36,852 nt of DNA, from contig JAIXXB010000016.1 of NCBI GenBank assembly GCA_027490955.1, positions 1 through 36,852 of the forward strand, written 5' to 3'. The translations under genes and the position numbers were made by a program. Below, piece by piece: positions 5,724 through 28,223 of this stretch. The notes under the pieces were generated by a model. That model did not search any database. It was given only the letters and a program-made list of their open reading frames with translations, and was not told the DNA's origin. Numbering within the stretch: position 1 is the first letter of the stretch; every line of letters starts with the position of its first letter. Origin of the DNA: Rhodobacter sp. (GTDB lineage Bacteria; Pseudomonadota; Alphaproteobacteria; Rhodobacterales; Rhodobacteraceae).

Positions 5724-5813
5724 CGGGCCTCCCAATCGGCGCTTGCATTGCGCGGTGCTTTGAATGAATATGTGTGCACATAAAATGTCAATGACGAATT
5801 CAGGAGATTTGAC
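5724..5813. promoter_or_regulatory. hutI/hutF divergent control region with a candidate HutC operator
   Basis: These 90 bases must carry the promoters of both hut transcripts. At 5773-5780 is the perfect palindrome TGTGCACA, embedded in TGTGTGCACA (5771-5780). It fits the loose GT-N4-AC pattern recognised by GntR/HutC-type repressors. The hutF ribosome site is CAGGAG at 5801-5806. No clear -35/-10 pair could be assigned with confidence. Binding by HutC is inferred from position and symmetry only. Confidence 0.5.
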
Positions 5814-12640: not shown

Positions 12641-12893
12641 GGTTGTTCTCCCATAACTGGCCCAATGTGTGGCGCAGAACCACAGATGGTGCAACGGGTT
12701 GGGATGGGAATTTCGCGCAAACAGGGATCACCCTATACGCCTGATCGCCCAAACTTGCGCGGATCGGGCCAAAAATCCATGTGGAGGGTGCAGGTGTGCG
12801 ATATTGCGCGCCTTTGGCGGAGCGCTGGCGACATTTTGCCTGCCAAAGTCACGCGTGGCAAATACAACTGCAGGCAGGGCAAACTGCCCACAG
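12641..12893. promoter_or_regulatory. Intergenic region: glc promoter and end of the nag operon
   Basis: These 253 bases must contain the promoter of glcD and the 3' end of the amino-sugar operon transcript, both on the minus strand. Visible elements are a GGGCA/TGCCC hairpin with a 3-nt loop (12877-12889), lacking a U-run on the relevant strand, and a perfect CACGCGTG palindrome (12850-12857). There is also a small AGGG-ATCA-CCCT dyad near 12722-12733. None could be assigned to a known regulator. Short open frames here look like chance frames. Confidence 0.35.
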
Positions 12894-14081
12894 TTACAGC
12901 GCCTTATGCAGCTTTTCTGGCCAAGGCACAGCATTTGCCGCCAGTTTCGGATGCTGGGCCAGAAAACTGCTGCGCCATTGCCCATCCAGCACCAAGATAT
13001 CGCCCAAGTCGCGCCCTGCGGGGCTGGCCAAGGCAGGCTTGCCAATCACCCGCGCGGGGGCGGAAATGGCCATATCCAGCGCCGTGGCGGGCGGCACGCC
13101 AACATGGGTGATCAGCCGCGCCAAACCTTCGGCCATGGTCACATGCGCCCCCGCAAGCGAACCTTCGGCATTCACCAAACGCCCCCCTTCCAGATGCAAT
13201 TCTTGGCCATAAAGCGTGAACCGATCTGAGCCGCCCACAGTGGACATCGCATCCGAGACCAAAAACATCCGCCCCGCCGCAGGGCGCGCGCGAATGGCCA
13301 GCGCGATCATCTCATCGGCAACATGATGCCCGTCGCAGATGATACCCGCATAGGCCAGCGAATTGATGCAGGCCCCCGTTACGCCAGCGGCGCGGTTCAG
13401 CATGGGCGACATCGCGTTAAACAAATGTGTAAAGCAGCTTGCCCCCGCAGCGAGCAGCGCGCGCACCTCTTCGGCGCGGGCATCGGAATGCCCGATGGAT
13501 ACAACCGCCCCCGTGGCCACGATCTGCGCCACTTGCGCGGGGGTCACCGCCTCGGGCGCGAGGGTGATTTTCACAAATATCCCTGCCGCGCGCAGGCGCT
13601 GGATATGGGCCATCGTGCGGGCTTCAAAGGGGCGGATATACTGGGCCAAATGCGTGCCGCGCCGCGCAATCGACAAATGCGGCCCTTCGATATGCAGTCC
13701 CAAAACGCCCTGCATGCCCTGCGCGGCCAGCGCGGCATCCACCGCGCGATCCAGCACTTCGGGCGCGTCTGTGATGACTGTTGGCAAAATACCCACTGTG
13801 CCAAAGCGGCGATGCGCTGCAGCCATGCGCGCGATGGCCCCCGCGCTTTGATCATTGTTCAACAGCGCATCCCCGCCGCCATTGACCTGCAAATCCAAAA
13901 ACCCTGCGCAGATCGTGCCCGCCACCTCGATCACCTTTGCCTCGGCTGACAGATTGGCGCGCCGCATGATTTTGCCCGTGCGCCCGCCCGTGATGGCCAG
14001 CGCCATATCGGCATGCAAATCTTTGCCGTCAAACAGCGCGTCGGGGGCAATCCAGATGGGGGCGACTGGGCTGGCGCACAT
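12894..14081 (-). CDS. nagA: N-acetylhexosamine-6-phosphate deacetylase (NagA family)
   Basis: Removes the acetyl group from GlcNAc-6-P, and in some members GalNAc-6-P (AgaA), in the cytoplasm. It is 395 residues, an amidohydrolase-fold metalloenzyme. PGFLDLQVNGGG-type strand 1 appears as AGFLDLQVNGGGD. HIEGPHL carries the metal-ligand Glu132. VSIGHSDA carries His198, THLFNAMSP carries His219 and LVSDAMSTVGG carries Asp277, matching the family catalytic aspartate. It is the last gene of the ten-gene operon, 9 nt after gatZ. Because AgaS and GatZ homologues share the operon, the enzyme may act on both the gluco and galacto substrates; sequence reading alone cannot separate NagA from AgaA. Confidence 0.9.
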   Translation of the reverse strand: MCASPVAPIWIAPDALFDGKDLHADMALAITGGRTGKIMRRANLSAEAKVIEVAGTICAGFLDLQVNGGGDALLNNDQSAGAIARMAAAHRRFGTVGILPTVITDAPEVLDRAVDAALAAQGMQGVLGLHIEGPHLSIARRGTHLAQYIRPFEARTMAHIQRLRAAGIFVKITLAPEAVTPAQVAQIVATGAVVSIGHSDARAEEVRALLAAGASCFTHLFNAMSPMLNRAAGVTGACINSLAYAGIICDGHHVADEMIALAIRARPAAGRMFLVSDAMSTVGGSDRFTLYGQELHLEGGRLVNAEGSLAGAHVTMAEGLARLITHVGVPPATALDMAISAPARVIGKPALASPAGRDLGDILVLDGQWRSSFLAQHPKLAANAVPWPEKLHKAL

Positions 14082-14090
14082 GGCGATGTC

Positions 14091-15377
14091 CTAGATCGGT
14101 TGCAAAAGTGGCGCGGACGAAAAGAAATAGGGACGAAGGGCAGATTGCACGCGGCCAAGGGCCAGCGCATAGGGCAGGCTTTGCGATGATTGGCGGGCAG
14201 ATGCAAGCTCGCTTTGGGTGAAGTGATGCACGATGGCACTATCGTCTAGGCTTAGGCTGCCCAAGTCAGCAAACAGGGCGGCCACCGCGGCCACGGCCTG
14301 TGGATGGGGCCAGTAATACCGAATGCGGTCGGCCAGACCCAGATGCAGCAAGCTGGCCAAATTGTCCGCATCGGCAGGATAATGGCCTTGCCAATGCTTT
14401 GGCTCGGCCTGCATCAACTCTTCCATCACCTTTGGCAGACTAGGGCCATGCTGGCCGCCCTGCTGCGCGCGCATCTTGTCCAGCGCATACAGCGCCTCGC
14501 GCCACGCAAAAGTCAGCGCAGGGCCAACCTTTTGAAAGGCAAATCCCAGCGCGGCAAGGCGGGGATAGGCTGCGGGATGTTGATAATCGGTCGAATGGGC
14601 CTCTAGGCAGATATGGGGGTCATCTTGCAAAGCAGACAGCAGATTGGGGTCACGCTGCATGGGCAGATGATGCACATGCTGGGGCGAGAATTCGACACCG
14701 GGCTGCACGACCAGCCCGCCGATTTGCGCCCATGCGGCGCCGATGCCTGCTGCCTCGAAGGCGGCTTTATGCGCGGCTAAGGTCGCCTTGGCTGCGGCAG
14801 GGGTCGTGGCGGGGATGTCGCCATCTTCATCGGCCCGCGCGCCGCCCGGTGGGGGCACTTCGGTGCCGATGACAAAGATCAATTCGTCGGGGTTTGGGGC
14901 CGCGCGCAGGGCCACGGCGGCCAAATCGGCGCTGCGCGCGGCGGTCAGCGCATCGGGCAATTGCGCCGCCTCGCCTGAGCAGCCTTCGGAACAATCCAGA
15001 TGCAGTTTGCCAAAGCCCGCCGATGCATAGCTGGCCACCAAATCGCGCGCCTTTTCCATCGCCGCAGCAGCGGGGCGCGCGCGCCATGCCTGCGGGCCAA
15101 GGTGATCGCCGCCAAACAGGATATCGCGCGGTGCGTGGCCCACGCTTTGCGCTATGCCGTTGACGAAATTTATAAAATCTGGCGGCCTCATGCCCGTGTA
15201 GCCGCCATCTTGGTTCACTTGGTTCGATGTTGCCTCGATCACGATGGGCGCAGATAGGGATTTGGCCAGCCGCAACGACGCCTCGATCACCGCAGGGTGG
15301 GCCGAGCAGACCGACGGGATCGCCGCATGATGCCCTGCGCGATTTTCGGCGATGATGCGGCGCAAAACTTGGCTCAT
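14091..15377 (-). CDS. GatZ/KbaZ-family protein (possible D-tagatose-6-phosphate 4-epimerase)
   Basis: A 428-residue member of the GatZ/KbaZ/AgaZ family. It was annotated historically as tagatose-6-P kinase and as the non-catalytic subunit of tagatose-1,6-bisphosphate aldolase. Family blocks include IVIEATSNQVNQDGGYTGM, DILFGGDHLGPQ, KLHLDCSEGC, VIGTEVPPPGGA and EAHSTDYQ. The start at 15377 overlaps the kinase stop by 4 nt. No GatY/KbaY aldolase or tagatose-6-P kinase occurs in the window. Some GatZ homologues outside enteric bacteria have been described as tagatose-6-P 4-epimerases that make fructose-6-P. The gene context favours that role here, but this is inference. Confidence 0.85.
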   Translation of the reverse strand: MSQVLRRIIAENRAGHHAAIPSVCSAHPAVIEASLRLAKSLSAPIVIEATSNQVNQDGGYTGMRPPDFINFVNGIAQSVGHAPRDILFGGDHLGPQAWRARPAAAAMEKARDLVASYASAGFGKLHLDCSEGCSGEAAQLPDALTAARSADLAAVALRAAPNPDELIFVIGTEVPPPGGARADEDGDIPATTPAAAKATLAAHKAAFEAAGIGAAWAQIGGLVVQPGVEFSPQHVHHLPMQRDPNLLSALQDDPHICLEAHSTDYQHPAAYPRLAALGFAFQKVGPALTFAWREALYALDKMRAQQGGQHGPSLPKVMEELMQAEPKHWQGHYPADADNLASLLHLGLADRIRYYWPHPQAVAAVAALFADLGSLSLDDSAIVHHFTQSELASARQSSQSLPYALALGRVQSALRPYFFSSAPLLQPI

Positions 15378-16282
15378 GCTTGCCCCTCGCGCCATGCGGC
15401 ATAGGCCGCCCCCCGCGCGCCAGATGCATCGCCGCCCTGTGCCAAACGGATGGGTGGTATGGCGAAATCTTTCAGCGTTGCAAGCTGCAATGCGCGCGCA
15501 AGATCATCCGCCAGATCAGGGGCGTTTGAAAGCCCGCCACCAATTACAATCACCGCAGGATCGATGGAAAAGCACAGGGTGATCAAGAAATCGCACGCTA
15601 GTTCCAGCCAAATGGCCCATGCCTTTTGCAGTCCCGCATCGCTGGCACGCCCTGCGATCACATCTTCGGGCATGTGCATATGCCCTGTCACATGGGCTGC
15701 AATACGGGCAAGTCCGGGTGCAGATAGCAACGTTTCGGTGCAGCCCATGCGCCCGCATCCGCAGGGCAAGACGGGCAGGCCATGTGCGATCATGGGGCCA
15801 GCGGGCAGGGGGAAATGGCCAAATTCGCCCCCCAGCCCTGCAAAAGCAGGCATGATTTGCCCGCTGGTCACCACCCCCCCCGCGAGCCCCGTGCCAAAGA
15901 TCAGCGCAAGTGCAGGGTCAAAGCCCTGCGCCGCACCAAAACGCGCCTCGGAAAGGGCCAGCGCGCGGCAATCGTTGATCCATGAAATTGGCCGTCCAGC
16001 GGCGCGGGCGATATCGGCAGGAAAGGGCCGCCCTGACGCGGCCAAATTGGCCGTCAAGGCAAGGCCCGTGGCAGGATTAATCAGACCAGCGGCAGAAACC
16101 CCGACAGGCAGGCCCGCCCGCGATTGCCCCTCGCACCACGCCACAGCCTGCGCCATGGCCTGCACCAAATCGTCATATGATTTTGGGGTGGGCCAGCGCT
16201 GGCGCGTTGTCATTTTCCATGCAGCATCAAAGACTTGCGCCTCGATCTTCGTGCCGCCCAGATCAATGCCTGCCGCACTCAT
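15374..16282 (-). CDS. ROK-family sugar kinase (N-acetylhexosamine kinase candidate)
   Basis: A 302-residue ROK kinase. The N-terminal phosphate loop is GIDLGGTKIEA (residues 5-15), followed by an acidic sugar-binding region WINDCRALALSEA and a second nucleotide loop LIFGTGLAGG. The GEFGH substrate motif and the ROK zinc motif PCGCGRMGCTE come next. Between AgaS-like and GatZ-like genes, the likely job is ATP-dependent 6-phosphorylation of GlcNAc and/or GalNAc released in the cytoplasm. This is needed because the importer is an ABC system and does not phosphorylate. ATGA overlaps join it to both neighbours. Substrate is inferred from context. Confidence 0.85.
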   Translation of the reverse strand: MSAAGIDLGGTKIEAQVFDAAWKMTTRQRWPTPKSYDDLVQAMAQAVAWCEGQSRAGLPVGVSAAGLINPATGLALTANLAASGRPFPADIARAAGRPISWINDCRALALSEARFGAAQGFDPALALIFGTGLAGGVVTSGQIMPAFAGLGGEFGHFPLPAGPMIAHGLPVLPCGCGRMGCTETLLSAPGLARIAAHVTGHMHMPEDVIAGRASDAGLQKAWAIWLELACDFLITLCFSIDPAVIVIGGGLSNAPDLADDLARALQLATLKDFAIPPIRLAQGGDASGARGAAYAAWREGQA

Positions 16283-17340
16283 CGCGCCACCACAGGGTAT
16301 AACCGCACATTTGCCACAACGCGCGTCAAGGTGCCTTTGCCTGCAAAGGGGTCATCTACATTCAGCCCCAAACTATCCGACCAAACGGCCGCCAAAACTT
16401 GGGCCAGCGCCACATATAAAGGGGCCGCCCATGCATCTGTATGCGGGCGCGGCAGGGCTGGTAGATGCAGGGTACTGGTGGGGAATTGCTGGGCAAGCTC
16501 GCCCGCAAGGTCGCGCTCATAGGCTGCTGTATGGGCATCTTGGGAAGCTAGCAGCCAAATATCCGTGCCGCCATCGACAAAGCTTTTTGGCCCATGACGA
16601 AAGCCGAGGGCAGAGTCCCACAGCGCGGGGATTTGCCCTGCCGACAGTTCCATCACCTTTAGCGCGGCCTCACGCGCAGCAAAGGTCAGCGCGCCCGATC
16701 CCAAAAACACCGCGCGCTGTGGGCGGCGCATGGTTTGGGCGCGGGCGGTGTATTGGGGCAACAGCGCATCTAAATCATCAGCCAGCGCGGCCCAGCGGGC
16801 AGGGCCCATTTGGGCGGGCAAGGCCATATCCAGCAGGCTTAGCGCCGTCAGCAGCATGGTGGAAAAGCTGGAGGTCATGGCAAAGCCCGCATCATGGCAG
16901 GCCTCTGGCAGCACGATCACGTTGCAGCCTGCGCGCCGCGCCATGTGGGATGCTGCATTACAGGTGATGTTCAGGCGCGGCCAATCTGGGACAAGCGCAT
17001 CCATTGCATCCAAAAGGCCAATCGATTCCGCCGAATTTCCCGATCTGCCAAAGGAAATCACCAGCCGCTTGCCGCCGCGCAAATGCGCATGCGGGCGCGC
17101 AACGATATCGGTGCTGGCACAGGCGCGCAGCGATGGGCCGTCTTGCCCTGCGAGACCCGATGCAACCACCTCGCCAATAAAGGCCGAAGAGCCCGCCCCG
17201 CAAAGCCAAATCTCATCGACCCCCTGCGCTGCGATCCACGCGCGAAGCCCCGCAATATCCAGTTCCGCGCCCCAACTGCGCCAAATGGCAGGCTGGGCGT
17301 TTATCTCTTGCCATGTGGCGGTTTGGGGCAGGGCGGTCAT
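16279..17340 (-). CDS. agaS: AgaS-family SIS-domain sugar-phosphate isomerase/deaminase
   Basis: A 353-residue protein with two SIS domains. The first carries WLCGAGSSAFIG and ISFGRSGNSAES; the second carries AVFLGSGALTFAAREAALKVMELS. The segment DSALGFRHGPKSFVDGG is characteristic of AgaS. This family converts galactosamine-6-P to tagatose-6-P with release of ammonia. The ATG at 17340 overlaps the stop of the preceding SIS gene by 4 nt. The ORF could start further upstream, but that would lie inside the neighbour. It is adjacent to a second, different SIS enzyme, so the operon appears to process two hexosamine phosphates. Confidence 0.85.
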   Translation of the reverse strand: MTALPQTATWQEINAQPAIWRSWGAELDIAGLRAWIAAQGVDEIWLCGAGSSAFIGEVVASGLAGQDGPSLRACASTDIVARPHAHLRGGKRLVISFGRSGNSAESIGLLDAMDALVPDWPRLNITCNAASHMARRAGCNVIVLPEACHDAGFAMTSSFSTMLLTALSLLDMALPAQMGPARWAALADDLDALLPQYTARAQTMRRPQRAVFLGSGALTFAAREAALKVMELSAGQIPALWDSALGFRHGPKSFVDGGTDIWLLASQDAHTAAYERDLAGELAQQFPTSTLHLPALPRPHTDAWAAPLYVALAQVLAAVWSDSLGLNVDDPFAGKGTLTRVVANVRLYPVVAR

Positions 17341-18344
17341 CGGGTTTGCGTCACTTTGGCAAGGGTGGCAGGTTGGTCTGGGTTCAGCCCTAGGGCAAGG
17401 GCACAGTGCAGGGCAAGCGGATATGTCAGGCACAAAAGCGCCGCCGCTGCCGCCGCTGGCGTCAGGCCGCGCGCACCCACATCAGAAGGGCGCAGGCGAA
17501 ATACAGTGCCCCCTGCCGCGGTAAATCGCGCCTCGGCCGTGTTCAGACTGTCTTGCACGGTGTCTTGTTCTGTATCCAGAATGATAATCAACAAAGGGTT
17601 GGTGACCAATTGCAAAGGGCCGTGCAGCACCTCGCTGCTGGAATAGGCCTCGGCATGTAGGGCGCAGCATTCCTTTAGCTTGAGCGCCAGTTCTTGCGCT
17701 GCGCCAAACCCCGTATCGCGGCCAATCACATAGACATGGCGCGCGCGCAGCAAAGCCGCCTGTAGCGCGGCGGATTGGGGCAGGCTGGCCCCCTGCAAGG
17801 CTGCAAAACCAGCAGCCGAGGCTTGGGTCCGCGCGGCATAGTTCGGTTGCAAATGCCCCAGCAGCGCCATGCCGCCGCCAATCGCCCCCACGACCGATTT
17901 TGTGGCGGGCACTGCCAATTCGGGGCCCGCGCAGATGCGCAAGCTTGCCTCGGCTGCAGCTTCGACGGGGCTGGCTTCGGCATTGACCAGCGCCAAAACC
18001 CGCGCGCCCGCCTGCGCCGCGCCCTGTGCCGAGGCGACCAAATCTTGGCTTGCCCCCGATTGGCTGACCACCAGCACCGCCGATCCGCGCAGTTGCACCC
18101 CGCCGCCCAGCGAAAAGATGGATGGCGGCAGCGATGTCATCGGCAATCCCGTCTCGCGCATGAATTCGTAAGACAAGATATTTGCGGCCGCATCGGATGA
18201 CCCGCGCGCCACTGTGTAAAATCCATGCAACTGCCCAAGGCTCGGCAGATCAACCTGTTGCCCGACTGCAGCCGCAAACACCGCAGGGCACTGGGTGATT
18301 TCGCGCGCCATATGCTGGCCTGCATGAAGGGCAACCGCGCTCAT
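17337..18344 (-). CDS. SIS-domain glucosamine-6-phosphate deaminase, NagB-II type
   Basis: A 335-residue double-SIS protein resembling the isomerase half of glucosamine-6-P synthase without its glutaminase domain. The opening MAREITQCPAVF, VARGSSDAAANIL, VVSQSGASQDLV, VPATKSVVGAIGG, YVIGRDTGFGAAQELALKLKE and AEAYSSSEVLHGPLQLV all fit the NagB-II group. That group deaminates glucosamine-6-P to fructose-6-P. It replaces the unrelated classical NagB, which is absent from the window. The start at 18344 overlaps the Gfo/Idh gene stop by 4 nt. An alternative Met eleven residues later exists but has no such overlap. Confidence 0.85.
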   Translation of the reverse strand: MSAVALHAGQHMAREITQCPAVFAAAVGQQVDLPSLGQLHGFYTVARGSSDAAANILSYEFMRETGLPMTSLPPSIFSLGGGVQLRGSAVLVVSQSGASQDLVASAQGAAQAGARVLALVNAEASPVEAAAEASLRICAGPELAVPATKSVVGAIGGGMALLGHLQPNYAARTQASAAGFAALQGASLPQSAALQAALLRARHVYVIGRDTGFGAAQELALKLKECCALHAEAYSSSEVLHGPLQLVTNPLLIIILDTEQDTVQDSLNTAEARFTAAGGTVFRLRPSDVGARGLTPAAAAAALLCLTYPLALHCALALGLNPDQPATLAKVTQTR

Positions 18345-19483
18345 CCGCGCAAACCATAGGCGTCGAGTTGCGCCCAAGTGTCGGTAAGGTCAATCACTTG
18401 GCCGCTTTCGCGTGCGCGATCTAGGGCCAGTGCGGCAATGCCTGCCTCCATCGCATCCAAAATTGACACGGGTAGACCTGCCGATTGCCCCCGCATATAG
18501 GCCGCGATATCGCGGCACATCATGGCATCTGCGCCGTAATGCGCGCCTTTGGCGGCCGCGCCAGTGGTGTAATCATGGTCGGCCAGCCTGCGCCCATCGC
18601 GCGCAGTCACCCGCAGAAATCCGCGCACAAAATCCCCTTCGGCCATGCCGCGCGCGCCCATCACGCAAAAGCGGCGATGTTCGTCTGGGGCGTTCAGATT
18701 GGTGTGAAAGGCAAGGCTGCTGCCCGTTTCATATTGCAAAATCGCCGTTTGAAAATCGATGATATCGCCATCTGAACGGAATGGATCATCGGTGGCCTGC
18801 CACACTGATTTTTTGACATGAAAAATGTCAGCTTCGGCGTTGCTGGCAGGGGCATGGGCAGGCACAAAGCTTTTGCGCCCCCCGAATGAGGCCACGCGCG
18901 CTGGGCGCGATGCGGTGATCATGTTGTAAATGTCCAAATCGTGGCAGCATTTTTCCAGCATAAACCCGCCCGTCAGGTTCGTTTTTCGCCGCCAATCGCG
19001 CATAAAGAACGCGCCGTGATAGGGGGCGATATGTTCGTTCGCTTCAAGGCTCACTATTTCGCCCAACTGACCATCGGCCATGGCGCGGCGCAGATCGACC
19101 ATATGCTGCGAATAGCGCAGAACCAGTCCCACCATGGCGCGCCCCGCCCCGCCATGCAGCGACAAAAGGCGGGCAAGTTCCAGCGTTTCTTCGATAGAAA
19201 TCACCACGGGCTTTTCCGTGAAAATCTGCACCCCTGCCTCTAGCCCAAGGCGGATTTGCTCTAGGTGAAAGACATTGGGGGAAAAGACGCAGTAAAGGTC
19301 GGGCTTTGCATCCGATAGCATCGCCTCGACGCTGTCATAGCGCGGAATATCCCCGCCCAGCATGTCCAGATGGGTGGGGAAAGGGTCATAAAACCCAACC
19401 ACCTTTGCCTCGGGCATTTCGGCCAGAAGGGTGCTGAGCACATGGCCTGCGCGCAGACCCATTCCTGCTGTGACAATCCGCAT
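18341..19483 (-). CDS. Gfo/Idh/MocA-family NAD(P)-dependent protein
   Basis: A 380-residue member of the Gfo/Idh/MocA family. The N-terminal Rossmann fold begins MRIVTAGMGLRAGHVL, the conserved FTEKPV lies near residue 90, and GGFMLEKCCHDLDIYNM is the catalytic-region equivalent near residue 170. The C-terminal half is the usual alpha/beta substrate domain. No signal peptide is visible, so it is cytoplasmic. Substrate is unknown. In an AgaS/NagA operon it could be an amino-sugar oxidoreductase, or an NAD-dependent glycosidase of the GH109 type, which shares this fold and acts on alpha-GalNAc. Sequence alone does not decide. Confidence 0.8.
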   Translation of the reverse strand: MRIVTAGMGLRAGHVLSTLLAEMPEAKVVGFYDPFPTHLDMLGGDIPRYDSVEAMLSDAKPDLYCVFSPNVFHLEQIRLGLEAGVQIFTEKPVVISIEETLELARLLSLHGGAGRAMVGLVLRYSQHMVDLRRAMADGQLGEIVSLEANEHIAPYHGAFFMRDWRRKTNLTGGFMLEKCCHDLDIYNMITASRPARVASFGGRKSFVPAHAPASNAEADIFHVKKSVWQATDDPFRSDGDIIDFQTAILQYETGSSLAFHTNLNAPDEHRRFCVMGARGMAEGDFVRGFLRVTARDGRRLADHDYTTGAAAKGAHYGADAMMCRDIAAYMRGQSAGLPVSILDAMEAGIAALALDRARESGQVIDLTDTWAQLDAYGLRG

Positions 19484-19500
19484 TTCGTCTATCCTTAGAA

Positions 19501-20598
19501 TTAAGCCGCGAGGGCAGGGGCGGCAAGGCGGCGCATCACGCGGCCGGCATTGTCAAATACATGGGCGTCTTGGGGGGCAAAGGTCAGGCCAATATCCTCG
19601 CCTTCGCGCACAGGGCTGTCGCCCGCCAGCGCCGCGCAAATCTTTTGCCCCGTTTGAGTTGCTCCATAGGAAATGGCAGTGCCGCCCAAACGTTCCAGCA
19701 CGCGCAGTTTCATCGAAAGCCCTTTGCCAAGACGCAGGTTTTCGGGGCGGATTCCTACCTCTACCGCATCGCCCTTTTGCGCCGTACCAAAGTCGACTGG
19801 CAGGGTCATGCGTGCGCCACCTGCAATGTCAACTGTCAGCCCATCTTTGTCTGTGCCCACAACTGTGGCAGGCAAAAGGTTCATATTGGGCTGGCCGATA
19901 AAGGTGGCAACAAAGCGGGTTGCGGGGTGGTGATACAGTTCCATCGGCGTGCCAAACTGTTCAATGCGGCCTTTATTCAGCACAACAATGCGGTGCGCCA
20001 TCGTCATGGCTTCGATTTGGTCATGCGTAACAAAGATCATCGTGGCATCAAGGTCGCGTTGCAGGGCAGAAAGTTCGACCCGCATCTCGCCGCGCAGGGC
20101 GGCATCAAGGTTCGACAAAGGCTCGTCAAATAAGAAAACTTTGGGATTGCGGACGATGGATCGCCCAATGGCCACACGCTGGCGCTGCCCGCCAGACAGT
20201 TGGCCGGGTTTCAACTGCAACTTGTCATTCAATTGCAAGATTTCTGCGGCGCGTCCCACTTTTTGGCGCACCTCAGCCTCGGGCAGGCGGGCAACGCGCA
20301 GGGGAAAGGCGATGTTTTCGAAAACCGTCAAATGCGGATACAGGGCATAGGATTGAAACACCATGGAAATGCCGCGATCGACAGGCGCTGCCTGCGATAC
20401 ATCGACGCCGTCAATCAAGATGCGCCCTGCGCTGGCCTCTTCCAAACCTGCGATAATGCGCAAAAGCGTGGACTTGCCGCAGCCCGACGGGCCAACAAAC
20501 ACCACAAATTCGCGGTCGCGCACCGCCAAATCAATGCCATGCAGCACCTGCGCTGTGCCGAAGGATTTGGTCAATGCGGAAAGTTCCAGCGTGGCCAT
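19501..20598 (-). CDS. Sugar ABC transporter ATP-binding protein (UgpC/MalK type)
   Basis: A 365-residue ATPase that powers the importer encoded upstream. Walker A is GPSGCGKST (residues ~36-44), the signature is LSGGQRQRVAIGRSI, Walker B is VFLFDEPLSNLD and the switch region is FVTHDQIEAMTM. The C-terminal ~130 residues form an OB/TOBE domain of the CUT1 type (VEVGIRPENLRLG). The start at 20598 follows the solute-binding gene by 55 nt, a gap that contains a strong stem-loop. MalK-like TOBE domains can also bind regulators, but no motif for that is evident here. Confidence 0.92.
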   Translation of the reverse strand: MATLELSALTKSFGTAQVLHGIDLAVRDREFVVFVGPSGCGKSTLLRIIAGLEEASAGRILIDGVDVSQAAPVDRGISMVFQSYALYPHLTVFENIAFPLRVARLPEAEVRQKVGRAAEILQLNDKLQLKPGQLSGGQRQRVAIGRSIVRNPKVFLFDEPLSNLDAALRGEMRVELSALQRDLDATMIFVTHDQIEAMTMAHRIVVLNKGRIEQFGTPMELYHHPATRFVATFIGQPNMNLLPATVVGTDKDGLTVDIAGGARMTLPVDFGTAQKGDAVEVGIRPENLRLGKGLSMKLRVLERLGGTAISYGATQTGQKICAALAGDSPVREGEDIGLTFAPQDAHVFDNAGRVMRRLAAPALAA

Positions 20599-20624
20599 AG
20601 TGACAACCTATCAATGAAAGGAAA

Positions 20625-20646
20625 GGGGCGCGGTATTCCGCGCCCC
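20625..20646 (-). terminator. Strong stem-loop between binding-protein and ATPase genes
   Basis: GGGGCGCGG and CCGCGCCCC form a perfect 9-bp stem with a 4-nt TATT loop. On the minus (transcribed) strand it is followed by TTTCCTTTC rather than a continuous U-run. It sits directly after the solute-binding protein stop. Its likely role is to protect the upstream mRNA from 3' decay or to cause partial termination, so that the binding protein is made in excess over the downstream subunits. Confidence 0.8.
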
Positions 20647-20653
20647 CCAAAGC

Positions 20654-21865
20654 TTAGCGCACCGCGGCCAGTTCTTCGCCAGCGGTTGTGACCAATTCAT
20701 CAACCGAACCTTCGCCCAGCATGATGCCCTGCACCATGTTGGTAAAGACCGCTTGCAGCGATTTGAAATCTTCGACCATAGGCTCTGGCCCACCCGTCGA
20801 GATGCCTGCCACAAACACTGGCCATGGGTCTGCCTTATAGTAGACATCGCTCATGCCCATTTTTTCGTAATCCAAGATCGGCGTCAGGCCCCAAGTGCTG
20901 TCAAGGTCATACTGCGCCTCGCCCGAGGTCAGCGCCTTGGCCAGTTTGGTTGCCAGTTCTTCATGGCCGGTGCCCTTGAACACGGCGATCGAGTCCGTGA
21001 TCAGGATCGTGCCCGAATCCCCAGATGGGCCGTGCGGAATTGGCACGATCAACTGGTTTGGCACTTTTTCAGCATGTTGCCCTTTGCCCCATGGCCCTGT
21101 GACATACATGGCGATTTGGCCATCGTTGAACAGGTCCTTCATCTGGTCGCGTTCCCATTCCGTGGGGCCAGACTGCATATAGGGCAACAAGTCTGCATAT
21201 AGTTGCAGCGTTTCGCGGGTGGCTTGGCTGTCCAAAGCGGGCGCGCCGCTTTCGTCGAATACAAGACCATCGTTGGAATACAGGAAATCAAGGAACATAT
21301 GCATGGTGTTGTCAAAATCCTTGCCCGCAATGCCAATGCCAGCGGCATCGGTGTTGTCGGTCACGGTTTTGGCCAATGCCACCAGATCGGCCCATGTGGC
21401 GGGCGCTTTGCATTCAGCGCCAGCGGCTTCGACCACGGTGCAGTTGATATACAGCGCTTTGGTCGAAAAGGCGTGTGGAATGCCCCAATACTGCCCACCA
21501 GTAGACACGGTCGACAAAACGCCGGGCTGATAGAGGGCCTCTTCTTCGGGCGAGAAGGTGACTGGGACGATCAAATCATTCTTGGCCAACTGGCGCAGCG
21601 TGCGCGAGCCCATATAGGCAATCGAAGGCGGATCACCAGCCGCAGCCAACTGCATCGATTTATCTTGGCACGTGCCCCATTCCACGGCCTCCATATTCAC
21701 GGTCACGCCCGCATTTTCCGCGATGAACGTGTCGATAACCTTTTGGTCGGCAGGGCGCACTTCGCCGCCGCACATGATAAAATGCAGCTCTTCGGCCTGT
21801 GCAGACAGGGCCGTGCCTGCCAGCAGGGCCGCTGCCATGGTTAGTGTCTTTACAGATGTCATCAT
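20654..21865 (-). CDS. Sugar ABC transporter periplasmic solute-binding protein
   Basis: A 403-residue CUT1-family extracellular binding protein (family 1, maltose-binding fold). The N-terminus MTSVKTLTMAAALLAGTALSAQA is a Sec signal peptide with probable cleavage after AQA, followed by the mature EELHFIMCGGEVRPADQKV. There is no lipobox, so the protein should be soluble in the periplasm. Two adjacent Met codons (21865 and 21862) are possible starts behind an AAGGGAG site. Within the operon it is third, after both permeases, whereas binding proteins are often encoded first. The ligand is probably an N-acetylhexosamine or its oligosaccharide, inferred from the enzymes downstream. Confidence 0.92.
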   Translation of the reverse strand: MMTSVKTLTMAAALLAGTALSAQAEELHFIMCGGEVRPADQKVIDTFIAENAGVTVNMEAVEWGTCQDKSMQLAAAGDPPSIAYMGSRTLRQLAKNDLIVPVTFSPEEEALYQPGVLSTVSTGGQYWGIPHAFSTKALYINCTVVEAAGAECKAPATWADLVALAKTVTDNTDAAGIGIAGKDFDNTMHMFLDFLYSNDGLVFDESGAPALDSQATRETLQLYADLLPYMQSGPTEWERDQMKDLFNDGQIAMYVTGPWGKGQHAEKVPNQLIVPIPHGPSGDSGTILITDSIAVFKGTGHEELATKLAKALTSGEAQYDLDSTWGLTPILDYEKMGMSDVYYKADPWPVFVAGISTGGPEPMVEDFKSLQAVFTNMVQGIMLGEGSVDELVTTAGEELAAVR

Positions 21866-21893
21866 AGTCTCCCTTATGTTGGATGTCTGACTG

Positions 21894-22739
21894 TCACTCT
21901 TTCACCGCGCCCGCTGTCAGACCAGCGACGAGGTATTTCTGCAGGAACAGGAAGAACACCAGAACGGGCAGCACGCCTGTTAGGGCTGCGGCCATCATCT
22001 CGTTCCATGTTGTGTCCTGATACCCGATAAATTCAAACAAGCCCGCAGGCAGGGGCTGCAATTCGCGCACGTTGTTGAAAGTGATCGCGAACAGAAATTG
22101 CTGCGCATAGGCCCCGATGAAAACCGAGGTTGACACCACGATCATGCCTGGAACTGCCAGCGGAATGACCACGCGGCGCAGGGTGTATAGGCGCGATGCG
22201 CCATCGACATAGGCGGCCTCTTCCAATTCGCGCGGGATCTTTTCAAGGTAGCTGCGCAGCAACCAAATGCCCGTGGGGATCAAAAAGGCCACGCCCGGAA
22301 TGATCATGGCCCAATAGGTATTCAACAGGCTAAGCTGGCGCAGCACGCGATACAGCGGGATAAGCAGCACCGCGCCCGTGAACATATTCACCGCCAAAAA
22401 CCCGCCCAAGGACAGGGACTTGAACGGGAATTCCAGCCGCGCATAGGCATAGGCACCCGGTATCACCACAACCATAGTCGCCACAGTCACGCAGAGCGCG
22501 ATAAAGACCGAATTGAAGATATACCGCCCCAGCAGCGGCACTGTGACCCACATATCGCGGTAGGCTTGCCACGAAAAATCCTCGGACCACCACGTGAAAT
22601 CGGCGGTCATCAGATGCGACATGGGCCGTAGGCTGACGCGAAACATTTCGATAAAGGGCATCAGGATGAACAGCAAAAAGATAAAGGTGGCGATATAAAG
22701 CCCGATCTTTTGCCAGATATTCAGACGATCAATCATCAT
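21894..22739 (-). CDS. Sugar ABC transporter permease (MalG type)
   Basis: A 281-residue inner-membrane permease with six predicted hydrophobic segments, starting with IGLYIATFIFLLFILMPFI. The cytoplasmic EAA loop is ELEEAAYVDGASRLYTLRRVVIPLAVPG, where it contacts the ATPase. It starts at 22739, immediately next to the stop of the partner permease (0 nt gap); the second Met is an alternative. With the MalF-type protein it forms the channel of a CUT1 importer. Confidence 0.92.
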   Translation of the reverse strand: MMIDRLNIWQKIGLYIATFIFLLFILMPFIEMFRVSLRPMSHLMTADFTWWSEDFSWQAYRDMWVTVPLLGRYIFNSVFIALCVTVATMVVVIPGAYAYARLEFPFKSLSLGGFLAVNMFTGAVLLIPLYRVLRQLSLLNTYWAMIIPGVAFLIPTGIWLLRSYLEKIPRELEEAAYVDGASRLYTLRRVVIPLAVPGMIVVSTSVFIGAYAQQFLFAITFNNVRELQPLPAGLFEFIGYQDTTWNEMMAAALTGVLPVLVFFLFLQKYLVAGLTAGAVKE

Positions 22740-23660
22740 CTATTTCGCCCCATAATGGCGGTTCACGCGGTTGAGAAAATACAAATAAGCCAACGAGAAC
22801 AGCGCCAGCAGCGCCACGATCACCACCGCGCGCGCGGCCCCCTCGCCAAAGCGCTGGCTGGAAATGGCCACTTTATAGGTATCGATAATCAGCGTGGTCG
22901 TGGCCCCGCGCGGCCCGCCTTCGGTGAGGATCCAGATGATTTCAAAGCTGTTGAATGTCCAAATCGCCGAAAGCAGCGCCATCGACACGATCACAGGCAT
23001 GATCTGCGGAATGGTGATGCGGCGAAAGCGATACCAGCGCCTTGCGCCATCAACCCATGCCGCCTCGTATAAATCGCGGCTCACGCCTTGCATTGCAGCC
23101 AAAAAGAACAGCGTCACCATCGGCGTGCCAACCCAGACATCGGTGACAACGGCCGAATAAAACGCGCTTGTTTTGGTCGCCAACAGCGCGACGCGATCCT
23201 GAATGATGCCAAATTCCTGCAACAGGCCCGAAATCAGGCCGAAATAGCCATTATACATCCATTTCCAGCCAATCACACCAATGGCTACGGGGATGACCCA
23301 CGGCGGCATCACCAAAATGCGAAACAGCGCCTTGCCCGGAAGGGCGGCGTTCAGCAAGGATGCGCCAATCAGGCCCATGACCAATTTCAGGCTGACGGAC
23401 AGGAACATCCAATAGAAGGTGCGCCCGACTGTGTCATAGAATTTGGGGCTGGACAGCAGTTCGGCATAATTGGCAAGGCCAATGTATTCCTCGCCGCCGA
23501 GCGTGGCATTGGTAAAGGAAAGGCGAATGGTTTCAGCCAAAGGCCATGCCACAATCACGCCAATGAACAGCAGCGCGGGCGAGATCAGCAGCCATGCAAA
23601 GGCAGCTTCCGACAGGCCCGACCTTGCCATTATCGGCGCGGATTGTCCTGTGTTTGCCAT
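22740..23660 (-). CDS. Sugar ABC transporter permease (MalF type)
   Basis: A 306-residue inner-membrane permease with about six membrane segments, the first being FAWLLISPALLFIGVIVAWPL. The EAA loop is DLYEAAWVDGARRWYRFRRITIPQIMP. The ATG at 23660 was chosen because GGGGAAG lies 6-7 bases upstream; the longer frame would extend into the regulatory region and begins with non-permease sequence. It is the first gene of the ten-gene minus-strand operon and is divergent from the GntR gene. Confidence 0.92.
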   Translation of the reverse strand: MANTGQSAPIMARSGLSEAAFAWLLISPALLFIGVIVAWPLAETIRLSFTNATLGGEEYIGLANYAELLSSPKFYDTVGRTFYWMFLSVSLKLVMGLIGASLLNAALPGKALFRILVMPPWVIPVAIGVIGWKWMYNGYFGLISGLLQEFGIIQDRVALLATKTSAFYSAVVTDVWVGTPMVTLFFLAAMQGVSRDLYEAAWVDGARRWYRFRRITIPQIMPVIVSMALLSAIWTFNSFEIIWILTEGGPRGATTTLIIDTYKVAISSQRFGEGAARAVVIVALLALFSLAYLYFLNRVNRHYGAK

Positions 23661-23740
23661 GCTGCACTTCCCCCAATCCTGCGCGAATCGCAGTGCTGGG
23701 GTAAAGATACCAAAATCAAATTGTAATGCTACCAATATAA

Positions 23741-23764
23741 TACCAAATACGCAAAAAATTGGTA
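23741..23764. promoter_or_regulatory. Candidate operator dyad TACCAA-N12-TTGGTA
   Basis: A perfect 6-bp inverted repeat with a 12-bp spacer, half-sites facing outward. A further TACCAA at 23730 lies 11 bp from the first half-site, one helical turn away on the same DNA face. The dyad is near the start of the importer operon (permease ATG at 23660) and could block its promoter. Confidence 0.6.
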
Positions 23765-23827
23765 AATGGGCAAGATTCCCCTTGTTTTAGGCCAGAAAAT
23801 CATTCCAATAGACGTCAGGCGCATATA

Positions 23828-23851
23828 TTGGTAATGTGAAAATAATACCAA
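23828..23851. promoter_or_regulatory. Candidate operator dyad TTGGTA-N12-TACCAA
   Basis: A perfect 6-bp inverted repeat, again with a 12-bp spacer but in the opposite half-site order to the dyad at 23741-23764. It ends 13 bases before the GntR start codon (23865), so bound protein would overlap the ribosome site or promoter of the regulator itself. This suggests autoregulation. Confidence 0.6.
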
Positions 23852-23864
23852 TTCGGGGGCGATA

Positions 23865-24626
23865 ATGCAGGATCATTTGGCGATATATCGTCCCAAGGCA
23901 TGGCTGCGCGCAGGGCAGGGGCCGCGGTATGAACAGTTATATCGGCATTTGCTGGCGGCGATCACCTCGGGCGAGATGGCCGCGCAATCGCAACTGCCGC
24001 CCGAGCGCGAGCTTGCCGAAATTGCCGAGGTGAGCCGTGTGACGGTGCGCAAAGCGGTGGCGCAACTTGTCGAAGACAGCCTGCTGGAACAGAGGCGCGG
24101 GGCGGGCACTTTTGTGCGCGCCCCGCGCCCCAAAATGGAACATTCCCTTTCGGCGCTGATGTCTTTCACCGAATATATGCGCCAGCGCGGCAAAACCTCG
24201 ACCAGCCGCATCTTGCAGCGCGGCATTGTCCCGCCCAGCCCAGACGAGCAAATCGCACTTGGATTGCCAGGCAGCGAGACCCTCTCGCGGGTGGAACGCT
24301 TGCGCTTTGCCGATGATGTGCCGATGGCGTTGGAACGATCATCCCTGCCGCGCGACATTCTGCCTGATCCTGATATGGTCGATGTCTCGCTGTATGACGT
24401 GCTGCGCGCCCGCGCCTTGGCCCCGACCCGCGCTGTGCAACGGATCACGGCGGTGAATTTGGGCGGTGATGATGCGCGGCTTTTGAACCTTGTCGACGGG
24501 GCGGCGGTGCTGCGCATTGATCGCACGGCCTATTTGCCATCGGGGCGGCCGATTGAGTTTACGCGCGGTCTATATCGATCAGACATCTATGATTTTATTG
24601 CAGAATTACGTTTGGATGCATCATGA
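23865..24626 (+). CDS. GntR-family amino-sugar regulator (NagR/DasR-like)
   Basis: A 253-residue GntR/HutC-subfamily regulator. The winged helix spans ~20-88 (QLPPERELAEIAEVSRVTVRKAVAQLVEDSLLEQRRGAGTFV in segments), and the UTRA ligand domain spans ~105-245, ending with IDRTAYLPSGRPIEFTRGLYRSDIYDF. UTRA domains of the NagR/DasR group sense GlcNAc-6-P or glucosamine-6-P. It is divergent from the importer operon and overlaps the GH20 gene by 4 nt, which makes it the probable local regulator of both. GGGGGC precedes the ATG. The effector is inferred, not visible. Confidence 0.9.
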   Translation: MQDHLAIYRPKAWLRAGQGPRYEQLYRHLLAAITSGEMAAQSQLPPERELAEIAEVSRVTVRKAVAQLVEDSLLEQRRGAGTFVRAPRPKMEHSLSALMSFTEYMRQRGKTSTSRILQRGIVPPSPDEQIALGLPGSETLSRVERLRFADDVPMALERSSLPRDILPDPDMVDVSLYDVLRARALAPTRAVQRITAVNLGGDDARLLNLVDGAAVLRIDRTAYLPSGRPIEFTRGLYRSDIYDFIAELRLDAS

Positions 24627-26455
24627 ACCTAAGCTTTTCCGCCCGCATTGAGGGCGCGCAGATTCTTTGTGACATTGGCAGTGATACGGCGCTGGTTGGC
24701 CCTGTTTTGTGTTTTTCCCTCATCGCAGCGCCGCGTGTTGTGTCGGGGGGCGTGTTGCAACGCCGCCTTGCAGGTTATGGCGAGGTGGCCCTGCCCGATA
24801 TTGCGGCAGGGCAGAACCACCGCCTTGTGCTGGCCTATGATAACCCTGACTATAGCCCAAAGAACCGCGCTTGGCTGCCGCTGGGGGCCTATCTGCGGGT
24901 GGGCAAAACCGCCCATACTTTGCCTGCGGGGTTTGACTTGGGCGTGCATTTGGCCCCTTTGCCCGCTGCTGCGCCTTTGCCTGCGCAAACCCTGCCGCTG
25001 ATCCCGCCGCCACAAGATTGGCAGCCATCAGGTGGAGAATGGGAGTTTTCTGCCCTGCGCCCCGATCCTGCCTATGACGGGGCGGATGCTTTGGCGCGCC
25101 GCATGGGCCTTGCGCCCCTGACGCAGCCAGATGGGCAGGCGGCGCATCCAGTTATCGACCCCAGTTTGCCCAGCGAAGGTTACCGGCTGACCATATCGCA
25201 ATCTGGCCTGACGATTGCCGTGGGTGGCACAGCGGGGGCGCATTACGCTGCGATTACCCTACTGACGCTGCGCAGCTTGATGGGCGGCAAACTGCCCTGC
25301 GGCACAATCACAGATGCGCCCCGCTTTGGTTGGCGCGGCCAGCATTTGGACTGCGCAAGGCATTTCTTTTCGGTCGATTTCATTTTGCGCCTGTTGGATG
25401 TGATGGCGCTGCTCAAGTTGAACCGCCTGCATTGGCATTTCGCTGATGACGAGGCCTTTCGGCTAGAGCTGAACTGTTATCCTGACCTTGCCCGCAAAAC
25501 ATCCCTGCGCGGCGAGGGGCAGTTGATGCCAGCGGTCTTTGGCGGCGGTATCTGTTCGGGTGGCAGCTACAGCCGCGCTGATGTGGCGCGCATCTTGGCC
25601 CATGCCGAGGCCCTGCATATTCAGGTTTTGCCTGAAATTGAAATCCCCGCCCATTCCCATGCCCTGATCAAGGCGATACCGGGTCTGCGCGATCCGGGTG
25701 ATAATGGTGAAGAGATGTCGGTGCAGGGTTACCTTGATAACATCGTCAATCCCGCCATGCCTGCCACTTGGGATATCCTGCCTGCCATCATGGACGAGGT
25801 GGCCAGCCTGTTTCCCATGCCCATCGTCCATCTTGGCTGCGATGAGGCCCCCCATGGCGCATGGGCGGGCAGCCCTGCGGTGCGCGCATTGATGGCGCGT
25901 GAAGGGCTGGGCACTTGGGCCGATGTGCAGGGCTGGATGATGGAAAAACTGGCCGCGCATTTGGCCGCCCGTGGCATTCGGGCGGCTGCATGGGAAGAGG
26001 CAGCCAAGGGTAAGAATGGCGGCATCGGCCATGGCGCGCTTTTGTTCAGTTGGACGGGGCAGGGCCCGGGCGTGGCGGCTGCACGCGCGGGCTATGACGT
26101 GGTGATGTGCCCCGCCCCACATGCCTATTTTGATTTGGCCCACAGTGCAGATATCGATGATTGGGGCGCAAGATGGGCTGGCGTTTTGCCTTTGGACAAT
26201 ACGCTGAACTGGGACCCGATTCCCGCAGACAGTCCCGATATTGCCCCGCGTGTTTTGGGGGTGCAGGGCTGTTTTTGGGGCGAGTTCACCACCGCCGATA
26301 GCCAAGCCGAGCCGATGATCGCGCCGCGCATTTTTGGTTTGGCCTGCAAAGGGTGGGAGCAGAAGGGCGCCACAACCCCCGCCCAATTGCGCGCGGTGAT
26401 CCCGCATTACGCGCCGCTTTTCGCCGCGATGAATTGGGCAATGGCCCCGTTTTAG
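24623..26455 (+). CDS. GH20 beta-N-acetylhexosaminidase, apparently cytoplasmic
   Basis: A 610-residue glycoside hydrolase of family 20. It hydrolyses terminal beta-linked GlcNAc or GalNAc by substrate-assisted catalysis. Residues ~125-225 look like the GH20b domain. The TIM-barrel begins at RFGWRGQHLDCARHFF and carries LKLNRLHWHFADDEAFRLE. The catalytic Asp407-Glu408 pair sits in VHLGCDEAPHGAW (the usual HxGGDE with Cys in place of one Gly). DTLNWDP-like and CFWGEF tryptophan motifs follow. No signal peptide is present at the N-terminus (MNLSFSARIEGAQ), so it should act on imported oligosaccharides. Its start lies in the GntR stop (ATGA) and its stop overlaps the convergent modC stop. Confidence 0.9.
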   Translation: MNLSFSARIEGAQILCDIGSDTALVGPVLCFSLIAAPRVVSGGVLQRRLAGYGEVALPDIAAGQNHRLVLAYDNPDYSPKNRAWLPLGAYLRVGKTAHTLPAGFDLGVHLAPLPAAAPLPAQTLPLIPPPQDWQPSGGEWEFSALRPDPAYDGADALARRMGLAPLTQPDGQAAHPVIDPSLPSEGYRLTISQSGLTIAVGGTAGAHYAAITLLTLRSLMGGKLPCGTITDAPRFGWRGQHLDCARHFFSVDFILRLLDVMALLKLNRLHWHFADDEAFRLELNCYPDLARKTSLRGEGQLMPAVFGGGICSGGSYSRADVARILAHAEALHIQVLPEIEIPAHSHALIKAIPGLRDPGDNGEEMSVQGYLDNIVNPAMPATWDILPAIMDEVASLFPMPIVHLGCDEAPHGAWAGSPAVRALMAREGLGTWADVQGWMMEKLAAHLAARGIRAAAWEEAAKGKNGGIGHGALLFSWTGQGPGVAAARAGYDVVMCPAPHAYFDLAHSADIDDWGARWAGVLPLDNTLNWDPIPADSPDIAPRVLGVQGCFWGEFTTADSQAEPMIAPRIFGLACKGWEQKGATTPAQLRAVIPHYAPLFAAMNWAMAPF

Positions 26456-27519: not shown

Positions 27520-28223
27520 GCCCCGCGCACCCATGCTGATGCACGCCGCGCCACCCATTCCGATGCAATCAGCGCGGCCATGGCAATCAGAACCGACAAC
27601 ACCACCAACCGCAGCGCGCCTTGGCCGCCATCGGGCGATTGCAAAAACACATAGATTGCCGAAGGGATGGTTTGCGTTTGCGCGGGAATTGCCCCGACAA
27701 AGGTGATGGTCGCGCCAAATTCGCCCAAAGCCTTGGCAAAGCCAAGGATCGCGCCCGCGATAATCCCAGGCAGGGCAAGGGGCAGGGTTATGGTGACAAA
27801 AACCCAAATAGGGGCCGCGCCCAAACTGGCTGCGCTGTTAAGCGTGCGCTGGTCAATCGCCTCGATCGACAGGCGGATGGCGCGCACTGTCAGCGGAAAG
27901 GCCATGACGGCGGCGGCCAGTGCCGCGCCTGTCCAGTGAAACGACAGCACAATGCCAAAACTTTGTTCCAGCCAAGCGCCGAACACTCCGCGCCGCCCAA
28001 ATGCGCGCAGCAGGATATAGCCTGTTACCACAGGTGGCAGGATCAAAGGCAGATGCACAACCCCGTTCAGCACGGATTTGCCCCAAAAGGACCAGCGCGC
28101 CAGCGCATAGGCCGTCAGCACCGCCACTGGCAGGCTGGCGATGGTCGCCCAAGCGGCCACCCGCAGCGACAGGCGCACGGCCTGCCATTCCTCTGGGCCA
28201 AGCCAGTTTGCGGCGGCGGTCAT
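27516..28223 (-). CDS. modB: Molybdate ABC transporter permease
   Basis: A 235-residue inner-membrane permease with about five to six hydrophobic segments. The ABC-permease cytoplasmic loop appears as LNSAASLGAAPIWVFVTITLPLALPG, and the ModB-typical ALGEFGATITFVG follows. The ATG at 28223 overlaps the modA stop by 4 nt, which excludes the much longer upstream frame that would lie within modA. It pairs with ModC and the binding protein ModA. Confidence 0.94.
   Translation of the reverse strand: MTAAANWLGPEEWQAVRLSLRVAAWATIASLPVAVLTAYALARWSFWGKSVLNGVVHLPLILPPVVTGYILLRAFGRRGVFGAWLEQSFGIVLSFHWTGAALAAAVMAFPLTVRAIRLSIEAIDQRTLNSAASLGAAPIWVFVTITLPLALPGIIAGAILGFAKALGEFGATITFVGAIPAQTQTIPSAIYVFLQSPDGGQGALRLVVLSVLIAMAALIASEWVARRASAWVRGA

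Follow-up and report, generated by a model that had tools for sequence, protein, structure and literature searches.

A candidate tagatose-6-phosphate 4-epimerase in a probable combined amino-sugar operon of Rhodobacter sp.

How might a bacterium use N-acetylgalactosamine (GalNAc) without first phosphorylating and then cleaving tagatose 6-phosphate (tagatose-6-P)? The question is raised by a minus-strand operon at positions 12894–23735 of a 36,852-nucleotide stretch of DNA from Rhodobacter sp. (GenBank assembly GCA_027490955.1, contig JAIXXB010000016.1, positions 1 to 36,852, forward strand), the whole of which is referred to here as the window. The operon encodes an ABC importer, a Gfo/Idh oxidoreductase, two SIS enzymes, a ROK kinase, a GatZ/KbaZ protein (hereafter GatZ) and the deacetylase NagA; a GntR/UTRA regulator and a GH20 hexosaminidase are encoded divergently on the plus strand. 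The first-pass annotation of this DNA had described one operon in which a NagB-II-like SIS enzyme (SISn) and an AgaS-like one (SISa) are adjacent, together with the ROK kinase, NagA and GatZ, and each of these genes was recovered in its place.

In the pathway that we infer for this locus, every enzyme activity, transporter substrate and inducer is assigned from kinship and context. The ABC importer would take up amino sugars or short oligosaccharides, the latter being trimmed by the GH20 enzyme. The ROK kinase would generate N-acetylhexosamine 6-phosphates, which NagA would convert into hexosamine 6-phosphates. SISn would then deaminate glucosamine 6-phosphate (GlcN-6-P) to fructose 6-phosphate (fructose-6-P), and SISa would deaminate galactosamine 6-phosphate (GalN-6-P) to tagatose-6-P. 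Finally, GatZ, as a metal-dependent enzyme, would use retro-aldol/aldol chemistry to invert tagatose-6-P at C4. The resulting fructose-6-P would pass onward through Pgi and Zwf, and neither tagatose-6-P kinase nor tagatose-bisphosphate aldolase would be required. A mutant result in PMC3668189 suits one NagA shared by two deaminases. It is estimated, at a probability of roughly 80%, that the locus lets the cell use N-acetylglucosamine (GlcNAc) and GalNAc via one gene set in this way, with a GatZ epimerase closing the galacto branch.

The AgaS-like enzyme and its association with GatZ

A phylogenetic profile was compiled from 196 genomes of the order Rhodobacterales, including that of the window. 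An AgaS-like protein (E up to 1e-20) was detected in 27 of these genomes and PF08013, the family of GatZ, in 35. PF08013 was present in 27/27 genomes with an AgaS-like protein versus 8/169 of the others (Fisher p 2e-26); counted by genus, the figures are 16/16 versus 7/72 (p 2e-12). In 22 of the 27, at most one gene separates the PF08013 gene from the AgaS-like gene; the two lie apart in five (G003, G028, G182, G083 and G190; ∼17 kb in G182). These five non-local copies fall outside the window's GatZ clade in the tree described below, and are read here as isofunctional relatives that may have taken the place of GatZ. Close relatives of the two SIS enzymes occur in the same 21 genomes, with scores of at least 366 bits for SISn (next 152) and at least 380 bits for SISa (next 315).

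Related stretches were taken as the best 80 of at least 532, and 58 of the 80 belong to the window's GatZ clade; genes were scored as present in these clade loci when matched by tblastn anywhere in the locus. All eleven genes besides GH20 were found in 46 of the 58 loci, and GH20 as well in 33, so the gene set is not a chance assembly. Type strains that carry the operon include Shimia sagamensis DSM 29734 (L035) and Yoonia litorea DSM 29433 (L025). SISa was matched in 56 of the 58, the two misses (L042 and L061) being contigs that start inside the kinase gene, and is thus present in 56/56 evaluable loci. SISn is absent from five, by contig end in L042 and L061 and truly in L022, L059 and L073. 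SISa is therefore constant beside this GatZ, whereas SISn is dispensable. The converse fails, as five genomes carry SISa without a local GatZ. A class II aldolase was found nearby in one of the 58 clade loci, and it is 67% like the iol-linked enzyme of the window's own genome and 33% like KbaY.

Some related loci depart from this layout. Those of Rubellimicrobium (L022, L055 and L059) are reduced, with importer and oxidoreductase unmatched by tblastn; the ROK kinase is also unmatched in L055 and L059, which hold a PfkB-type kinase 74–76% like one encoded in the window's own genome (L007). On a plasmid of Rhizobium sp. NZLR1 (L139, 8063–10311), genes for a SIS protein and a PF08013 protein accompany a BadF-type ATPase, a sugar ABC importer and a DeoR regulator, and no aldolase is annotated in the stretch. 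The SIS protein there has Lys and not the AgaS-type Arg discussed below, and the locus is perhaps a third, galactosamine-like form.

The two SIS enzymes were compared with curated families and known structures. SISa is best matched among NCBIfam models by TIGR02815 (232.4 bits, cut-off 529.2) and in the PDB by 3c3j, 3odp and 3i0z, all named putative tagatose-6-phosphate ketose/aldose isomerase. SISn is best matched by NF046059 (182.8 bits, cut-off 430) and by PDB entries 7kqa, deposited as FecR, and then 8eol, a glucosamine-6-phosphate deaminase. Residues K485, E488, H504 and K603 of GlmS are what we take to be its catalytic positions, and equivalents of the first three are kept in both SISn and SISa, which shares them with Escherichia coli AgaS. 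The K603 position is Lys in SISn of the window, and all four equivalents are retained in SISn of 60/60 relatives. In SISa it is Arg, as in Escherichia coli AgaS; Arg occupies 73 of 75 rows, the other two, with Lys, being the distant rhizobial L070 and L139.

The direct repeat TTGGTATTATATTGGTA is the only instance of TGGTA-N(0–14)-TGGTA in the window, where 0.09 would be expected by chance. Its first half-site is an exact TGGTATT, and its second matches as TGGTA only. The NagQ motif is given in PMC4494728 as direct repeats of TGGTATT. The published TGGTA core alone was also sought in the regions of 46 distinct relatives, the window not among them: TGGTA-N6-TGGTA occurs in 37, where shuffles that keep the composition give 0.035 on average. 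Because of this repeat in the divergent region and its retention in relatives, the operon is called NagQ-type; the GntR/UTRA regulator and a direct-repeat, TGGTATT-type operator ahead of nag genes are the marks of a NagQ regulon.

Such regulation would also suit an operon for GlcNAc only, in which SISa and GatZ act on a side product or another hexosamine 6-phosphate and GalNAc is not physiological. This is the alternative that survives best, and it is unlikely. It may draw further on the GlcNAc ABC importer nagTUVW of Ruegeria pomeroyi, which may or may not be orthologous to the window's importer; according to PMC10130141, single mutants confirmed the role of nagTUVW, although in a pool its mutants became enriched on GlcNAc, and only close relatives possess it. 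Against a GlcNAc-only operon, SISa is nearest to the named tagatose-6-phosphate ketose/aldose isomerases and carries the AgaS Arg, and it is retained in the three GatZ-containing loci from which SISn was lost. Furthermore, a second form of the locus occurs in G159, G162, G163 and a plasmid of Sinorhizobium RAC02, where SISa, GatZ and NagA stand under an AgaR-like regulator without SISn or KbaY. A ROK gene was called by script in G159 and G162 only, where SISa-ROK-GatZ-NagA forms a separate module.

GatZ and the search for its partners

GatZ of the window matches PF08013 over its full length (459.4 bits, cut-off 26.7; profile positions 1–417 of 420) and PDB entries 3txv (E 1e-101) and 2fiq (E 3e-88). 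Seven residues predicted in PMC11907403 to bind metal or take part in catalysis (C20, E44, D87, H88, E171, H257 and K279 of E. coli GatZ) are kept 7/7 in the window's protein and in 109/109 PF08013 rows, 106 of which are different. Such complete retention is more in keeping with an enzyme than with a chaperone, although the same paper describes these residues as conserved family-wide. In that report, deletion of gatZ from an E. coli strain abolished tagatose formation, which was regained with gatZ or kbaZ plus a phosphatase. A class II aldolase-like Zn site was predicted, and a Zn-dependent retro-aldol/aldol mechanism involving D87, H88, E171, H257 and other residues was proposed. PF08013 tagatose-6-phosphate 4-epimerases from Agrobacterium tumefaciens, Sinorhizobium meliloti and Caldilinea aerophila are cited there.

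In a GatZ tree of 109 rows (106 different), the window's protein belongs to a clade of 67, comprising 58 combined loci, seven aga-type loci and two others, with a Shimodaira–Hasegawa-like approximate likelihood ratio test (SH-aLRT) support of 99. The KbaY-linked rows number three, all inside a separate four-row clade, and the remaining 106 of the 109 rows represent gatZ without gatY. The tree was built by a quick method with SH-aLRT support only, its root serves for drawing and E. coli GatZ was flagged as long, so it does not show whether aldolase-linked forms gave rise to orphan ones or the reverse. The protein of G156 (442 bits) was considered as a window-clade GatZ and rejected, as the tree puts it at the end of a long branch across from that clade; this genome was counted with the eight that have PF08013 and no AgaS. 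The tree agrees with an epimerase, its characterised members being few, namely E. coli GatZ, E. coli KbaZ and the S. meliloti pSymB homologue.

Searches of the window's own genome (G000) returned one copy of PF08013 and a single class II aldolase (PF01116), on contig C15. This aldolase scores 161.1 bits against the 443.55 required for tagatose-bisphosphate aldolase (TIGR01858), and adjoins an IolC-like kinase (TIGR04382, 321.5 bits, above the cut-off of 300) and an IolB-like protein (TIGR04378, 161.9 bits, below 205). Eight PfkB-family proteins were found, all of them below the hexose-kinase cut-off and without a match to the LacC model at E 1e-10. The same genome-wide family searches returned no LacD and no phosphotransferase system (PTS) component EIID (PF03613). 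The first-pass annotation had reported that the window lacks GatY/KbaY, a tagatose-6-P kinase and a PTS, and the searches indeed place no class II aldolase, PfkB protein or EIID on its contig (C20). An aldolase partner encoded elsewhere in the genome was considered and rejected, given that the only PF01116 protein is iol-linked and far below the GatY cut-off and that LacD is lacking. Of the canonical Aga/Gam pathway, neither the Aga-type EIID nor the tagatose-6-P kinase nor the tagatose-bisphosphate aldolase (LacC/LacD or KbaY) was found in the own genome, nor was the GatY/KbaY above cut-off with which a TIGR02810 protein would be paired. A GatY/KbaY and tagatose-6-P kinase pair elsewhere in the genome, named in advance as a finding that would overturn the epimerase, was looked for and did not appear.

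The same picture holds across the profile. GatY above its cut-off was found in 0/196 genomes and in 1/14 control genomes. LacD above cut-off and EIID were found in 0/27 AgaS genomes, the window's own included. Two of these (G104 and G190), both with AgaS and PF08013, give no hit with the GatY model at a threshold as loose as E 0.001. With an AgaS-like gene in its own operon, and the genome's class II aldolase iol-linked and below the GatY cut-off, GatZ stands in the context expected of an epimerase. A GatZ 4-epimerase closing the galacto branch, as first proposed from the window alone, gains support from the genome-wide search and the tree, and the assignment of GatZ as a putative tagatose-6-P epimerase is well supported.

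The textbook alternative is that GatZ is a non-catalytic subunit of tagatose-bisphosphate aldolase that works with the C15 aldolase and a PfkB kinase in the manner of the enteric Aga/Kba pathway. Its name comes from GatZ's best NCBIfam model, TIGR02810 (tagatose-bisphosphate aldolase class II, non-catalytic subunit), for which GatZ scores 443.3 bits, short of the equivalog cut-off of 568.8. The genome does contain one PF01116 aldolase and eight PfkB kinases, and 25 of the 27 AgaS genomes have some class II aldolase below the GatY cut-off, as class II aldolases generally match this model. However, the C15 aldolase lies amid IolC- and IolB-like genes, no LacC-type kinase was found among the own genome's PfkB proteins, G104 and G190 lack a GatY-model match, and the predicted catalytic and metal residues of GatZ are all kept, so a subunit role is very unlikely. 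Less likely still is that GatZ is itself the tagatose-6-P kinase, its product being cleaved by a promiscuous fructose-bisphosphate aldolase: PMC12118421 mentions a proposal that AgaZ is such a kinase and 3txv and 2fiq are named probable or putative tagatose 6-phosphate kinase, yet C4 epimerisation in vivo by E. coli GatZ and KbaZ and the predicted Zn site (PMC11907403) speak against it, as do G104 and G190 without a GatY-model match (class I aldolases were not searched for).

The fate of fructose-6-P can be predicted from the same genome. No PfkA-type phosphofructokinase (PF00365) was found in it, and zwf, pgl and pgi lie side by side, all above cut-off; fructose-6-P would be expected to leave via Pgi and the Entner–Doudoroff or pentose routes. 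A check for classical nagB found no gene above the NagB cut-off and one NagB-like gene away from the nag operon (contig C8, 58074–58763; L012, L095; TIGR00502, 112.4 versus 236.9 bits). It adjoins a Gfo/Idh-like open reading frame (ORF) and another sugar-enzyme-like ORF, both identified by eye.

Besides the class II aldolases mentioned above, several points weigh against the proposed pathway. The own genome is a 2.96 Mb assembly in 42 contigs, 95.4% complete. LacD has a weak match in two of the 27 AgaS genomes, and the co-occurrence tests, the genus count apart, ignore shared ancestry. For SISn, SISa, the ROK kinase and GatZ, the best NCBIfam score falls far short of the curated cut-off, and for NagA it falls narrowly short, so that substrate names depend on kinship and single residues. 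The Gfo/Idh protein has no step in the pathway as drawn. A NagQ-type operator points to GlcNAc 6-phosphate as the inducer, and if the window's regulator answers to it, induction of the operon by GalNAc alone is not explained.

Features of the locus and neighbouring genes

Pfam and NCBIfam scans were made for ten of the 12 locus proteins, the two permeases being the exceptions, and agree with the assignments (Table 1). ATGA overlaps couple the genes at four junctions (oxidoreductase/SISn, SISn/SISa, SISa/ROK kinase and ROK kinase/GatZ). The gene positions of the first-pass annotation hold, but the starts of SISn, SISa and GatZ lie inside the longest ORFs, at the ATGA overlaps in which these genes begin.

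Table 1. Genes and operator of the amino-sugar locus, with the basis of each assignment.
Feature	Position	Strand	Basis
NagA-type N-acetylhexosamine-6-phosphate deacetylase, last gene of operon	12894..14081	-	TIGR00221; PDB 3egj
GatZ/KbaZ-like protein, proposed tagatose-6-P 4-epimerase	14091..15377	-	PF08013, PDB, residues, ATGA start; longest ORF from 15395
ROK kinase, proposed GlcNAc/GalNAc 6-kinase	15374..16282	-	PF00480, NF009835, PDB
AgaS-like SIS enzyme (SISa), proposed GalN-6-P deaminase/isomerase to tagatose-6-P	16279..17340	-	TIGR02815, PDB, residues
NagB-II-like SIS enzyme (SISn), proposed GlcN-6-P deaminase to fructose-6-P	17337..18344	-	NF046059, PDB, residues
Gfo/Idh/MocA oxidoreductase	18341..19483	-	PF01408
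ABC importer ATPase, UgpC/MsmK type	19501..20598	-	NF008653, 442.8 bits, above cut-off 432
ABC importer substrate-binding protein	20654..21865	-	PF01547, PF13416
ABC importer permease, MalG-like position	21894..22739	-	ORF, named by eye; kept in relatives, conserved order
ABC importer permease, MalF-like position	22740..23735	-	ORF, named by eye; kept in relatives, conserved order
Putative NagQ-type operator, direct repeat TTGGTATTATATTGGTA	23730..23746	-	TGGTA repeat match to published motif
GntR/HutC-subfamily regulator with UTRA domain, proposed NagQ	23865..24626	+	PF00392, PF07702
GH20 beta-N-acetylhexosaminidase	24623..26455	+	PF00728 (288.2 bits), PF02838

NagA narrowly misses the cut-off of TIGR00221 (225.1 versus 225.65 bits) and has no Pfam match at E 0.001; its best PDB match, 3egj (E 3e-57), is an N-acetylglucosamine-6-phosphate deacetylase. 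The ROK kinase reaches 181.6 bits with its best NCBIfam model, the N-acetylglucosamine kinase NF009835 (cut-off 380), and resembles 2ap1, named a putative regulator protein, followed by the N-acetyl-D-glucosamine kinases 7p7i and 4db3. The putative substrates of kinase and importer are named from kinship. Translation of the MalF-position permease probably starts downstream of the TTG at 23735. The nearest PDB entries to the Gfo/Idh/MocA protein are oxidoreductases of that family and inositol dehydrogenases. Its gene occurs together with the importer in 50 of the 58 clade loci; a Gfo/Idh/MocA gene also lies beside a NagB-type importer in G083, G190 and G163.

Beyond the nagA end of the operon, GlcF-, GlcE- and GlcD-like glycolate oxidase genes occupy 8812–12694, GlcE and GlcD scoring below cut-offs and GlcF being recognised by eye. 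What we take, by eye, to be a histidine utilisation cluster lies at 558–7891 (HutU-, HutG-, HutH-, HutI- and HutF-like genes and a GntR regulator). Molybdate importer genes for ModC, ModB and ModA, each above its curated cut-off, occupy 26452–28978. A minus-strand ORF at 34896–36053 has a repetitive Ile/Ala-rich reading and is perhaps the shadow of a repetitive gene on the opposite strand.

Significance and comparison with known systems

Were the proposed route correct, a share of Rhodobacterales (27/196 genomes with an AgaS-like protein and PF08013) would bypass kinase and aldolase by means of one enzyme that databases label a non-catalytic subunit. The annotation of many PF08013 members would be corrected, the frequency of gatZ without gatY would be accounted for, and GalNAc use would become predictable in genomes that are negative by the textbook definition. 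The long-unclear role of GatZ/KbaZ would also become testable by gene removal. A broader proposal extends the 4-epimerase activity to the whole GatZ/KbaZ family, with pairing to GatY/KbaY being late and enteric, the aldolase-free GalNAc route being common in alphaproteobacteria and the subunit label being wrong for most of PF08013; this is offered tentatively and is somewhat likelier to be wrong than right.

The 4-epimerase activity of PF08013 is not itself new, having been reported for Agrobacterium, Sinorhizobium and E. coli (PMC11907403). The new part is the pathway, an aldolase-free GalNAc route without an Aga-type PTS that is merged with GlcNAc catabolism in Rhodobacterales. No description of this combined route was found in the open-access literature searched, which was covered in part, and a prior description is possible. 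A 2025 review depicts GalNAc use with tagatose-6-P kinase and bisphosphate aldolase (PMC12118421). For a consortium with Rhodobacteraceae among its members, GalNAc pathways and importers have been predicted, though the text available does not detail the enzymes (PMC5507952).

The known tagatose-6-P 4-epimerases (those of A. tumefaciens and S. meliloti, E. coli GatZ and KbaZ and, by citation, that of C. aerophila) belong to the same Pfam family as the window's GatZ, which shares the seven predicted active-site residues with E. coli GatZ. The window's GatZ nevertheless falls in its 67-row clade apart from them (SH-aLRT 99). In its 17 kb locus, which yielded no KbaY/GatY-like gene, the S. meliloti pSymB homologue adjoins a tagatose kinase that passes its cut-off (429.5 versus 420). 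Known 4-epimerases serve free tagatose or galactitol, or production, whereas the tagatose-6-P of the window's GatZ would come from GalN-6-P via the AgaS-like enzyme.

Like the E. coli Aga/Gam system, the locus has an AgaS-like deaminase/isomerase, a NagA/AgaA-type deacetylase and a GatZ/KbaZ protein. It differs in that an ABC importer and a ROK kinase replace the PTS, KbaY and tagatose-6-P kinase are lacking, and the regulator is of the GntR/NagQ type rather than AgaR. With the NagQ regulon of alpha- and betaproteobacteria it shares a GntR/HutC-subfamily regulator, a direct-repeat operator, nagA and a deaminase gene. The core of that regulon consists of nagA, nagB and a PTS transporter (PMC5343134). 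In the window, an ABC importer and a SIS deaminase take the place of the PTS and nagB, and SISa and GatZ would add the galacto branch.

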